DNA from: Collinsella bouchesdurhonensis
GTDB lineage: Bacteria; Actinomycetota; Coriobacteriia; Coriobacteriales; Coriobacteriaceae
DNA length: 64,000 nt
Assembly: GCF_900155365.1 (NCBI RefSeq)
Contig: NZ_LT699737.1
Span: forward strand, 1 to 64,000
Direction: 5' to 3'
Part shown: positions 9,970 to 13,768 of the stretch, piece after piece
How positions within the stretch are numbered: position 1 is the stretch's first letter
Layout of the letters: each line of letters starts with the position of its first letter
Made by a program: the position numbers and the translations under genes
Notes under the pieces: model-generated
The model's database searches: none
Told to the model about the DNA's origin: nothing
Seen by the model: the letters and a program-made list of their open reading frames with translations, nothing else

Positions 9970-10989
9970 ATGTTCGTGGATCGCTGGCATGCATTTGGAA
10001 ACCTGATCGGCTCCAAGATGCCCTTTATCGTTCCCTGCTGTGTGGCGGCAGGCGTGCTCTTTCCCCAAGTCTTCTCGCCCATTCGCGCTGTCGTACCCGT
10101 CATGTTCGCCTTCATGACGTTTCAAGGCTCTCTCAACAACACCGTCCATCAGCTTCTTGGCGTATTTAAGCACCCCAAAGACCTCATCGTCATCTTGCTC
10201 ATAAGCCAGGTCTTTATGCCAACGCTCGCCTATTTCCTGGGAAACCTGCTATTTGCCGGCAACGTCAACCTCGTCACCGGCATTCTTCTTGAATATAGCG
10301 TGCCCGTAGCAGTGGTCAGCTTCATGTGGGTGGGCATGTTCCACGGCGACGGCCCCCTCGGACTCGCCGTCATCCTGGTTTCCACCGTGCTCGCACCCTT
10401 TAGCATCCCGTCTACGCTTCAGATTCTGATGGGGCATTCGATTCAGATCGACGCCGCCAAGATGATCTTTGACATGGTGCTGATGATCGCGCTTCCCGCG
10501 CTTGCAGGCATGATGGTTAACGAGCTGACCCACGAGTGGGGACATGAACGTCTCTCCCCCGCTATTTCCCCCGCTTGCCGCGCGTTGCTGGTGATCATCA
10601 TTACAGCGAATTCGACCGCGATGTCCTCCTACGTGCTCCATATGACCTGGGAGCGCATCGCCGTGGCGCTCTTCATTTTTTTCTACGCCTGCAGCGGGTA
10701 CATCTGGGGCCTGTTGGTCGCACGCCTTCTGCATCAGCCGCAACCGACGCTTGTCACCATGAGCTTCGCCTGTGGCCTGCGCAATATCTCGTCGGGCGCA
10801 GTCATCGCCAGCCAGTATTTTCCAGGCGAAGTGGTGTTCCCTGTCATGTGCGGCACCCTGTTCCAGCAGATGCTCGCTGCATTTTTTGGCGCGCTCATTC
10901 ATCGTCTATACGATGAGGACACCTCGACGACAGATGCCGGCATAGCAAACAAAAACGATACCGCTGCATCAAGCTCGCTCGTCAAGTAA
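9970..10989 (+). CDS. Bile acid:sodium symporter (BASS)-like membrane transporter
   Basis: The start is ATG 9970, preceded by AAAGAGGA at 8 bases; an ATG 21 bases earlier lacks a ribosome site. The 339-residue product has about nine hydrophobic segments and no soluble domain. The pattern FMTFQGSLNNT early, then LLEYSVPVAVVSFMW and SFACGLRNISSGAVIAS late, resembles the SBF/BASS family of secondary transporters. The substrate cannot be read from sequence: bile acids, pantoate, pyruvate-like organic anions and arsenite are known for relatives. The C-terminus overlaps the convergent downstream gene by 21 bases. Confidence 0.7.
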   Translation: MFVDRWHAFGNLIGSKMPFIVPCCVAAGVLFPQVFSPIRAVVPVMFAFMTFQGSLNNTVHQLLGVFKHPKDLIVILLISQVFMPTLAYFLGNLLFAGNVNLVTGILLEYSVPVAVVSFMWVGMFHGDGPLGLAVILVSTVLAPFSIPSTLQILMGHSIQIDAAKMIFDMVLMIALPALAGMMVNELTHEWGHERLSPAISPACRALLVIIITANSTAMSSYVLHMTWERIAVALFIFFYACSGYIWGLLVARLLHQPQPTLVTMSFACGLRNISSGAVIASQYFPGEVVFPVMCGTLFQQMLAAFFGALIHRLYDEDTSTTDAGIANKNDTAASSSLVK

Positions 10990-11766
10990 CTCCCGCAGAC
11001 ACTCGGCATCGTGTGCAAGCGTTGTCTCGGCATTGCATTGCGCCAAGCGATAGCCTACAAAATAGGGCGAGACCACCCAGCGCGGAAGCGCTTTGACGAT
11101 CGTCATCCCCTCCATGTGGTAAAAGAAAAGGTTATATGACGAGGCGCGCCCGCCGTGATGCTCGTTAAGAACATAGCGAACCACCGTCTGAAGCGCATCG
11201 GCAAATCGATTCGTGTCCTCAATGTCTTCTGGAGCATTGCCGTGGGCAAGCCCCTGTGGGCAGATGACGTTTACCTCAAAAAAGCCCATAACGGGATCGG
11301 TGGAAATGGTCGCGCGCACGCGCCCGCGCTGCCACACATCGATTCCCTCGAAGTGCTTCATAGAGATCTCTGCATACCCGTCTTCCTTCTCGAGCCCGAC
11401 GATTTGCATATGAGGATGCGTGAGGCTTCCGCCCGAAAGCGGACCCATGTTCTTGTACATAAGGACGCTGCGATAATCGCCCGAATCAATCATCTGCTCC
11501 CAGCAGGACAGCGCAAAGCGAATCACGCCATGGAGCTCCTCGGGTTCATATGTAGTGATATCCGCATCATGATCGGCCGACTCGATGAGCACGGTCTGCA
11601 TGGTATGGCGCAGCGTGCGAAACTTGTTCTGCAACCAAATGCGGTCCCCGTCACGGCGGATGATGTTCTCGAGCCCGTCGATGTCGCAAAACGGGCACGA
11701 CGTGCCCGGTCGACGGTTATCGTCCGGCTTACCCTTTGCCTTTACTACGTCAAACACCAGCGCCAT
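10969..11766 (-). CDS. GalT/HIT-superfamily protein (DUF4931-like)
   Basis: 265 residues. Features are a CPFC pair (24-27), typical of the structural zinc site of galactose-1-phosphate uridylyltransferases, and SLTHPHMQIVG with His117 and His119, a histidine-triad-like nucleotidyl transfer motif. It is shorter than GalT and lacks a second GalT domain, so it more likely represents the uncharacterised DUF4931-type family. No sugar-metabolism gene is nearby. Its start lies downstream of two large hairpin elements. Confidence 0.7.
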   Translation of the reverse strand: MALVFDVVKAKGKPDDNRRPGTSCPFCDIDGLENIIRRDGDRIWLQNKFRTLRHTMQTVLIESADHDADITTYEPEELHGVIRFALSCWEQMIDSGDYRSVLMYKNMGPLSGGSLTHPHMQIVGLEKEDGYAEISMKHFEGIDVWQRGRVRATISTDPVMGFFEVNVICPQGLAHGNAPEDIEDTNRFADALQTVVRYVLNEHHGGRASSYNLFFYHMEGMTIVKALPRWVVSPYFVGYRLAQCNAETTLAHDAECLRELLDERA

Positions 11767-11877
11767 GTCTGCCCCCTTGGTCTCATGTAGATAGAAGTAT
11801 CGCGCACCCTTGCGGAAGCAGGCAAGCCTGGGATAAACCCTGCCTAAAGCATCACACAGGCGAGCGTCCCCACCTAC

Positions 11878-11976
11878 GCCGGAAGGGGGCTGCCGTTGCC
11901 TCCATGCTCAGACATACTCGCGCTCTGCGAGCGCTGCGTAACTGCGCGTGGAGGCAACGGGCAGCCCCCTTCCGGC
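11878..11976. repeat. Large hairpin element, copy A
   Basis: A left arm of 26 bases (11878-11903) and right arm of 27 bases (11950-11976) are complementary apart from one extra C. They enclose a 46-base core (11904-11949) beginning ATGCTCAGACATACTC and ending TGCGTAACTGCGCGT. The core centre is itself a hairpin, GCGCTC-TGC-GAGCGC. The core recurs almost exactly, inverted, in copy B, while the arms differ in sequence. No coding frame or transposase is associated. It lies in the 432-base spacer between livF and the DUF4931 gene. Confidence 0.85.
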
Positions 11977-12016
11977 AAGGTACCGTACCGGTGGCGTAAA
12001 TCAAGCAGTTACCCCA

Positions 12017-12113
12017 GGAGCCGGGGCCTCCCTGTCTCCTCACGCGCAGTTACGCAGCGCTCGCAAGAGCGCGAGTATGTCTGAGCATGAGGAGACAGGG
12101 AGGCCCCGGCTCC
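12017..12113. repeat. Large hairpin element, copy B (inverted)
   Basis: Perfect 25-base arms (12017-12041 and 12089-12113) enclose a 47-base core (12042-12088) that is the reverse complement of the copy A core, with one extra base in the central loop (GCGCTC-GCAA-GAGCGC). The arms are unlike copy A base for base yet keep a G-rich start and pyrimidine end, which looks like compensatory change preserving pairing. The two copies are 40 bases apart. The remainder of the spacer to livF (12114-12198) shows nothing further. Confidence 0.85.
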
Positions 12114-12198
12114 GAACAGGTCGATGTCCCTTAAAGCAAAGGCGACACCGCCTGTTGATGCGATGCCGCCCTTGGATGGAACAATATGGTACGAAGCG

Positions 12199-12912
12199 TC
12201 AGCCGCCCAGGTAGGCACGGCGAACGTCATCGTTATGCAGGAGTTCTTGGCCCGTGCCGCTCAAGGTGATGTTGCCCGTCTCCATCACGTAGCCGCGCGT
12301 GGCGATGGAAAGCGCCATCTGCGCGTTTTGCTCGACCAGCAAGATCGTGGTGCCTGCCTTGTGCAGGTCCTCGATAATCTGGAAGATTTGCTCGATCAAA
12401 ATAGGAGCAAGGCCCATAGAGGGCTCGTCGAGCATGAGAAGCTTGGGGTTGCTCATAAGAGCGCGACCCATGGCGAGCATCTGCTGCTCACCGCCCGAAA
12501 GCGTGCCCGCAACCTGGCGACGGCGCTCTTTCAGGCGCGGGAATTGCTCGTAGACGCGCTCAAGACCGGGGGCGATGGTGCTCTTGGGCTGCGTATAGGC
12601 GCCCATCTCGAGGTTTTCCTCCACCGACATCTCAAGAAAGACGCGACGTCCCTCGGGTACCTGAGCCAGGCCCTTGGCAACGAGCTTGTCGGCGGGCGTA
12701 TGGGCGATGTCCTCGCCCTGGAATTTGATGGACCCCGTCTTGGAACGCAGCAAGCCCGAAATGGTCTTAAGAGTCGTGGACTTACCTGCACCGTTAGCGC
12801 CAATCAGAGCCACAATCTCGTCTTCGTTGACCTCAAAGGAAACGTTCTTGATGGCGTGGATTGCGCCGTACCAGACGTTGGCGTTGTATACGGAAAGCAT
12901 CGGTTCTGCCAT
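12199..12912 (-). CDS. livF: Branched-chain amino acid ABC transporter ATPase LivF
   Basis: The start at 12912 has AAGGAGG upstream; a longer frame to 13008 overlaps livG and is rejected. The 237-residue ABC ATPase shows Walker A GANGAGKST (38-46), signature LSGGEQQ (138-144), and Walker B LLMLDEPSMGLAP (158-170), the last strongly LivF-like. It energises uptake of leucine, isoleucine, valine or related amino acids with LivG at the inner face of the membrane. It begins 4 bases after the livG stop and is last of livHMGF. Confidence 0.93.
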   Translation of the reverse strand: MAEPMLSVYNANVWYGAIHAIKNVSFEVNEDEIVALIGANGAGKSTTLKTISGLLRSKTGSIKFQGEDIAHTPADKLVAKGLAQVPEGRRVFLEMSVEENLEMGAYTQPKSTIAPGLERVYEQFPRLKERRRQVAGTLSGGEQQMLAMGRALMSNPKLLMLDEPSMGLAPILIEQIFQIIEDLHKAGTTILLVEQNAQMALSIATRGYVMETGNITLSGTGQELLHNDDVRRAYLGG

Positions 12913-12916
12913 GGCG

Positions 12917-13768
12917 CTACGCCTCCTTCTTCTTGCCCAAATAGGCCTCGATGACGGTTTCGTTATTCTGAATCTCCTCGGCCGTGCCCTTAGCGATAAC
13001 CTTGCCAAAGGAAAGCACGCAGATGCCTTCGCAGATATTCATGACCAGGCTCATATCGTGCTCGATCAGCATAATGGCAATGCCAAAGGTGTCGCGGATC
13101 TTAACGATATTCTCCATGAGCTCCGCCGTCTCGGACGGATTCATGCCTGCCGCGGGCTCGTCCAGCAATAGCAGCGAGGGATTGGTCGCAAGCGCGCGCA
13201 CGATCTCCAAACGGCGCTGGGCACCGTAAGGAAGGCTTCCGGCCTGATCGTTCGCATGCTTTTCCATGTCAAAGATGGAGAGCAGCTCCATAGCGCGCTC
13301 GTGCGCCTGCTTCTCGTGCTTCCAGTAGCTGGGCAGGCGCAAAACGCCCTCGAGGCCCGTGTACTTTTCCTGGTTGTGCAGACCAACCTTGACGTTGTCC
13401 TCGACCGTCATGGACGAGAACAGGCGGATGTTTTGGAACGTACGGGCAATACCCATACGATTGACCTGGCTTACGGTCTTGCCGCTCGTATCTTGGCCGT
13501 TGAGCAGAATAGTTCCGTTTGTGGGCTGATAGACCTTGGTAAGCAGGTTGAATACCGTGGTCTTGCCAGCACCGTTGGGACCAATGAGACCGGCGATCTC
13601 GGTCTTGCCGATGGTGAGGTTAAAGTCATCGACCGCCTTCAGGCCGCCAAACTCGATACCCAGGTGGATGCACTCGAGCGCCGGCGTCTCGTTGACGTCG
13701 CGATCGGGAACGATGGCACGGCTGGGATAGGGCACCATCTTGCCCTTTTCGAACTCAAACTTAGACAT
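12917..13768 (-). CDS. livG: Branched-chain amino acid ABC transporter ATPase LivG
   Basis: 283 residues with Walker A GPNGAGKTT (63-71) and the long LivG-type insert around GIARTFQNIRLFSSMTVEDN. The C-terminus has LLLLDEPAAGMNPSET and LIEHDMSLVMNICEGICVL, typical of LivG. The roughly 30 residues before the ABC domain are longer than usual. The gene overlaps livM by 8 bases (ATGTCTAA), implying translational coupling. It pairs with LivF as the ATPase heterodimer. Confidence 0.93.
   Translation of the reverse strand: MSKFEFEKGKMVPYPSRAIVPDRDVNETPALECIHLGIEFGGLKAVDDFNLTIGKTEIAGLIGPNGAGKTTVFNLLTKVYQPTNGTILLNGQDTSGKTVSQVNRMGIARTFQNIRLFSSMTVEDNVKVGLHNQEKYTGLEGVLRLPSYWKHEKQAHERAMELLSIFDMEKHANDQAGSLPYGAQRRLEIVRALATNPSLLLLDEPAAGMNPSETAELMENIVKIRDTFGIAIMLIEHDMSLVMNICEGICVLSFGKVIAKGTAEEIQNNETVIEAYLGKKKEA

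Follow-up and report, generated by a model that had tools for sequence, protein, structure and literature searches.

Palindromic hairpins with a constant internal loop and covarying stems in Coriobacteriia, a candidate family of mobile palindromes

What kind of element forms a pair of large hairpins, set in opposite orientation, between two genes of Collinsella bouchesdurhonensis? The pair lies in a window of 64,000 nucleotides, which is the whole stretch of DNA analysed (positions 1 to 64,000 of contig NZ_LT699737.1; genome G000). The first hairpin, H1, occupies positions 11878-11976 with its core on the plus strand, and the second, H2, occupies 12017-12113 with its core on the minus strand; a 40-nt spacer (11977-12016) separates the inverted hairpins. 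The initial annotation described two inverted elements of about 98 bases lying 40 bases apart. Both were confirmed, and H2 is corrected to 97 nt with its end at 12017. The neighbours, both on the minus strand, are the ABC transporter gene livF (12199-13008, ORF as listed) and a gene for a DUF4931 (HIT/GalT-like) protein (10969-11766).

H1 begins with an X-side basal arm (11878-11904), which pairs with the Y-side basal arm (11948-11976, with one bulged G). Between the arms lie core strand X (TGCTCAGACATACTCG, 11905-11920), the variable apical stem-loop (11921-11934), which is replaced by unrelated stems in other copies, and core strand Y (TGCGTAACTGCGC, 11935-11947), the partner of X. Both core strands are near-invariant among the copies of the family. 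On the minus strand, H2 has the same order: X-side basal arm (12088-12113), 85 nt downstream of the livF stop codon on the same strand, core strand X (12072-12087), apical stem-loop (12057-12071), core strand Y (12044-12056) and Y-side basal arm (12017-12043). The near-identity of the cores that had been noted holds, as one T inserted in the apical loop of H2 is the sole difference between the two (TGCTCAGACATACTCG-CGCTC(T)TGCGAGCGC-TGCGTAACTGCGC). The arms differ in sequence between H1 and H2, yet each hairpin is self-complementary, as had also been claimed (z about -13). Folded as RNA, both strands of the hairpins reach -82 to -88 kcal/mol (z -12 to -14), which none of 200 shuffles matched; as DNA, the value is about -48 kcal/mol (z -10 to -12). 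A covariance model that includes both copies scores H1 and H2 at E about 1e-18 and has no further match in the 64 kb window. Both hairpins have their X side outward. In congeners, cutC is found between livF and the DUF4931 gene; it is absent there in G000, where the corresponding interval (11767-12198) is occupied by the hairpin pair. The X side of H1 is turned towards the 5′ end of the gene that follows. This arrangement is unusual and may be left over from the lost gene.

Each element consists of a basal stem of ~24 bp, an asymmetric internal loop and a free apical stem, which lies between the loop strands X (TGCTCARACATWCTCG) and Y (TGCGWAACT(G)CGC). A core of 46-47 bases, including an inner GCGCTC/GAGCGC hairpin, had been proposed as the conserved unit. 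The strands of the internal loop are indeed constant, but the proposed width is too large and the apical hairpin varies. Another copy of G000 (L003) has a wholly different apical stem (AAAGGCCTTGG...CCAAGGCCTTT), so that GCGCTC/GAGCGC does not belong to the conserved core. Additional subtypes (CTCARACAGTCCTCG...GCGGAACT; CTCAAACAGCTTCG...CAGAACT; CTCAAACAGCGCGC...GCGAACT) shrink the part that is invariant across subtypes to GCTCARACA on one strand and AACT(G)CGC on the other. The basal stem stops abruptly at about 24 bp. Watson-Crick pairing amounts to 83.5% over arm positions 12-24 and drops over positions 24-30 to 26.8%, a value also reached by shuffling. In most copies the sequence of the outer arms is unique. 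Most copies also have a conserved A.C or C.A mismatch in the basal stem, about 6 pairs from the core (arm positions 5-6; 23/42 at one position).

The claim that pairing rather than sequence is kept in the arms, while the sequence itself is kept in the core, extends to the whole class Coriobacteriia. In an alignment of 92 distinct copies, standard pairs fill 92.8% of the pair cells, compared with 71.5% after shuffling, and two-sided changes occur in 467 cells against 130.9 ± 10.5 in shuffled alignments, a count reached in none of 500 shuffles. The covariation score of 0.507 (0.124 shuffled) is lost when the partners are slid against each other. This alignment was fitted to a model, which favours the pairing of cells and hardly the two-sided changes; the same covariation is visible by eye when copies are extracted ungapped. 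The core itself contains a pair, X-W with Y-W, that is U-A in 45 copies, A-U in 12 and C-G in 32, and is never broken. Within a single genome, 51 copies gave 167 two-sided changes against 52.5 ± 7.1 shuffled.

The distribution of the family was determined with two covariance models. R1, built from 12 copies, detected members in 180 of 398 Coriobacteriia genomes, belonging to 53 of 153 genera, and many of these genomes gave at least 12 matches. These further copies have complementary arms, and since the family and its conserved arm pairing span the whole class, the pair in the window is not an accident of local duplication. A second model, R2, was run over the phylum and found the family in 22 of 37 Coriobacteriia, compared with 1 of ~359 other Actinomycetota, that one match being weak. 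G000 has four copies, H1 and H2 plus two on contig C15. In the first search, 24 of 45 congeneric genomes had an identical core, mostly in inverted pairs 240-290 bp apart in the region from a glycosyltransferase gene to dut. Copies with X, Y and paired arms number about 50 in Olsenella RUG161, and several are present in termite-gut Coriobacteriia; the same form occurs in a Sandaracinaceae MAG (21 copies) and an Eisenbacteria MAG (5 copies). A permuted order, arm-Y-loop-X-arm, is seen in Aminicenantes and Acidobacteriota MAGs and in one viral contig (L375 9030-9085), within longer dispersed repeats (L053, L054, L049-L051, L375). These permuted copies are probable relatives of the hairpin family; R2 did not detect those of the Aminicenantes and Acidobacteriota MAGs. 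Exact and BLAST searches of phage, plasmid and viral collections returned no full element except in a chromosome-sized Collinsella record among the plasmids. Matches of 16-mers in viral contigs lacked the partner strand and were dismissed as chance, L375 with its permuted form being the exception.

Neither the window nor the related loci matched Rfam at the gathering score; sub-threshold hits for the window were mostly to eukaryotic microRNA models, with one weak sX15. The literature searched, which includes the REP and RPE papers and is incomplete in coverage, held no description of the hairpin family, and the sole mention of Collinsella in the main text of a human-microbiome structured-RNA screen concerns a leader that precedes L7/L12 (PMC8040213). 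The family is thus apparently uncatalogued.

Copies inside genes reveal how the element behaves at a single site. In an Olsenella-like genus, iorA (indolepyruvate ferredoxin oxidoreductase, identified from its TPP and ferredoxin domains and its sequence) carries an in-frame hairpin in 19 genomes, and the site is empty in 8. In a DEAD/Helicase_C gene of that genus, each of the 29 orthologues examined has an in-frame hairpin, always at one position. The helicase-gene copies fall into at least four apical types, and 10 of the 29 are inverted, one of these being degenerate; the whole centre is likewise inverted in 1 of the 19 iorA copies. Reading frames are open in all in-gene copies. At such a site both arms change jointly from copy to copy, and at one site the apical type is swapped while the arms are retained (L307, L309, L310). 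Inversion gives an entirely different mRNA strand and peptide, so the core at the flipped sites is not kept for the sake of the RNA or the protein. The right outer arm at iorA resembles the empty site. Outer arms as copies of the target flank were considered and set aside, the likeness at this one locus being insufficient for such a claim.

Insertion and exchange are also seen between genes. In the C. aerofaciens group, a hairpin about 8-16 nt after def separates def from fmt, in X to Y orientation in 21 copies and flipped in one (L437). Three genomes have an entirely different hairpin at the same spot (L421, L424, L430), and three others have chimeric arms (L418, L434, L439). Six other Collinsella, G000 included, have no hairpin between def and fmt, which identifies the element as an insertion and not an inherited terminator. 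At the dut locus some half hairpins are orphaned, some arms are chimeric and a middle piece is reversed. The orphan outer halves (L012 1600-1660, L020 1600-1660, L022 1101-1200, L024, L025) stand in tandem outside the pair and each ends ...CTCAAACATTCTCGC, which gives the impression that one hairpin after another was cut or replaced at its tip.

The element shows a marked preference for gene 3′ ends. In Olsenella RUG161, 41 copies have the 3′ end of a gene on their X side, and in 39 of these the stem begins 6-34 nt past the stop codon and reads X to Y on the mRNA; gaps on the Y side are scattered from 14 to 726 nt without tight spacing. In a class-wide sample the core lies 29-75 nt behind a same-strand stop codon in 27 of 45 copies. 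Genes in these analyses were called with a simple codon model, which leaves a few calls uncertain. Where a hairpin pair lies between convergent genes, X is on the outside, which gives each gene one hairpin. No RNA gene was found beside the copies that lack an upstream stop codon, which precede nrdG or sit in genes. Several Coriobacteriia genera have a copy between nrdD and nrdG (L255, L257, L249, L272), immediately ahead of the start codon of nrdG and oriented either way.

We consider H1 and H2 to be members of a small interspersed family of palindromes that act at the DNA level and are mobile in the manner of REP and Rickettsia palindromic elements (RPE), a reading to which we assign a probability of roughly 0.55. 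It draws on features observed directly: the architecture, the covariation, the insertion polymorphism between species, the in-frame copies, the exchange and the flips. The unit would act as DNA, with the element folding when single-stranded and a putative enzyme recognising the internal loop and moving or exchanging the element. Fold-back templated correction is a known property of palindromes, and we propose that the arms drift in concert because such repair keeps them complementary. The same process would also remove the mismatches of the loop, so that a separate reason is needed for the loop to stay constant, recognition being the simplest. The zone right behind stop codons would be favoured through tolerance or targeting, and the transcript there probably forms a strong 3′ hairpin that may secondarily affect mRNA ends. 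Some findings weigh against mobility: neither a mobilising enzyme nor a target-site duplication was identified, the mostly unique outer arms are unlike those of a freshly spread repeat, and the helicase locus, occupied throughout the genus, looks long-term. It is possible, and we suggest it tentatively, that the family is a DNA-level hairpin module, in which the loop sits in arbitrary stems and is read by a putative dedicated enzyme of Coriobacteriia and a few other phyla. Such an enzyme might insert, exchange and invert hairpins at gene 3′ ends and inside genes, without conservation of the stem sequence.

The placement invites an explanation in terms of RNA. The hairpins could be cis-acting elements of the 3′ UTR whose loop is read by a dedicated protein or nuclease, the mRNA being ended, protected or processed as a result, and an inverted pair would then supply one hairpin for each of two convergent genes. 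The spacing and orientation past stop codons in Olsenella, with the loose Y side, and the class-wide distances agree with this, as does a slight excess of G.T over A.C pairs on the mRNA strand of the outer stems in one Olsenella genome (42 vs 17). That bias is absent class-wide (37 vs 33), however, and copies are found within ORFs and ahead of nrdG. The def hairpin comes between def and fmt, which sister species keep as a tight operon, and the Acidobacteriota motif stands on the opposite strand relative to the gene. The structured RNA suggested in the initial annotation thus finds room in the fixed orientation past stop codons, but is weakened by the in-place flips at def, iorA and the helicase gene; we judge the 3′ UTR explanation rather unlikely. 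Simple tolerance nevertheless predicts looser spacing than that in Olsenella, where the strict distance and fixed orientation argue for an orientation-specific role; we see a real, though small, chance that the transcript has such a role at 3′ ends or has acquired one at stop-codon sites. Position behind stop codons in many genomes would also suit ordinary intrinsic terminators, and a local duplication accident could be added for the pair in the window. No real U tract follows the stem, though, as T makes up 59% of the first base and 24-37% thereafter, and a mismatched core is conserved in hundreds of copies across a class. As a complete explanation this is refuted, and we give it hardly any weight. 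Insertion into the loops of pre-existing terminators was likewise ruled out by the missing U tracts, the constant 24-bp stem and the copies in ORFs.

If DNA is the acting form, known systems offer candidates for the machinery. REP elements and their BIME assemblies are linked with RAYT transposases (PMC2817692, PMC3733652), and REPs often stand a few nucleotides behind stop codons (PMC12306157). The present hairpins resemble them as extragenic palindromes that form inverted pairs and lie shortly past stop codons, and would be true REPs if moved by a RAYT (Y1) transposase. Y1_Tnp occurs in 123 of 180 hairpin genomes compared with 75 of 218 hairpin-free ones, an odds ratio of 4.1 that is confounded by kinship. 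Against this, no hairpin lies within about 2.5 kb of 16 Y1/RAYT-type genes, nor did any model match reveal the REP-typical arrangement of a rayt gene flanked by inverted repeats, and 57 hairpin genomes have no Y1_Tnp, including 10 of the 37 with seven or more copies. REPs measure 20-40 nt, have a GT(A/G)G head and occur in tens to hundreds of near-identical copies; the hairpins measure about 100 nt, number 4 in G000 and about 50 in one Olsenella, and have outer arms that all differ. Neither this head nor any other constant bases or tetranucleotide marks the stem foot, as judged from 51 copies of a single genome and from 91 in the class set. Movement by RAYT is largely refuted, and we regard it as improbable. 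The hairpins might instead be folded-DNA recombination sites, with H1 and H2 bounding an invertible or exchangeable segment. Integron attC sites are hairpins that are recognised through their structure; some of their bases are unpaired in an asymmetric pattern, and their terminal structure varies. The hairpin family shares both of these features, and its asymmetric mismatches could mark a strand; the reversed middle, chimeric arms, replacement of whole hairpins and orphan halves at dut and def also fit exchange. However, most copies are single and without a cassette, no recombinase lies beside the copies inspected, and ordinary recombination between strains also gives chimeric arms. The likeness to attC drawn in the initial annotation fails in the layout, since attC has its conserved boxes at the hairpin base, a part that varies in the present family, whose constant part lies mid-hairpin. 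The R-box consensus (RYYYAAC / GTTRRRY) is unmatched, as GCGWAAC of the Y strand does not fit RYYYAAC. We therefore think a recombination site of this kind quite doubtful, and for the retron-like fold also proposed no evidence was found.

Among described elements, the nearest kinds in the literature are RPE, REP and NEMIS. RPE (Ogata et al. 2000; reviewed in PMC2229807) are long-stemmed palindromes of ~100 nt that occur both in intergenic positions and, in frame, within conserved protein genes; the hairpins are alike in all of these respects. In-frame palindromes with empty orthologues, as described for RPE, are present in iorA, and the helicase gene was counted as a second case. The hairpins differ in lineage and sequence, in stems that covary without conserved sequence around a constant asymmetric loop, in their strong preference for positions just past stop codons and in their in-place orientation flips. 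The likeness is one of behaviour, and membership of the Rickettsia families is not claimed. The NEMIS or Correia elements of Neisseria are also palindromic mobile repeats beside genes, sometimes fused to ORFs; they measure about 100-155 bp and their transcripts are cut by RNase III (PMC2229807). NEMIS have conserved terminal inverted repeats and a target duplication, whereas the ends of the hairpin family are variable.

The family adds a widespread palindromic element, of a kind not found described, to common human gut bacteria (Collinsella, Olsenella and relatives). It provides unusually clean natural data on palindrome evolution, with paired stem changes, core swaps and flips, the filling and emptying of sites and a fixed mismatched loop. 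This loop is a defined bait for an enzyme or binding protein, and thus the old question of what moves RPE-like elements becomes testable here. The hairpins also have practical relevance, as they lie behind many genes and inside some proteins.

Other repeats were seen alongside the family. At several dut loci (L004 1410-1470, L016 1390-1440 and others), a third, unrelated palindrome (AGTAAGCCGATGCGA..AAAGGAGG..TCGCATCGGCTTACT) stands midway between the two hairpins, and both of its arms change together between genomes. In G000, contig C11 contains four repeats of 37-55 nt, GTGACAAAAAGTCGACAGGTTTATTTCGTCACATT (L207 828-882, 2402-2456, 3435-3480, 4619-4664), which surround the sole Y1_Tnp gene of this genome and are possibly regulator sites or that gene's own repeats.
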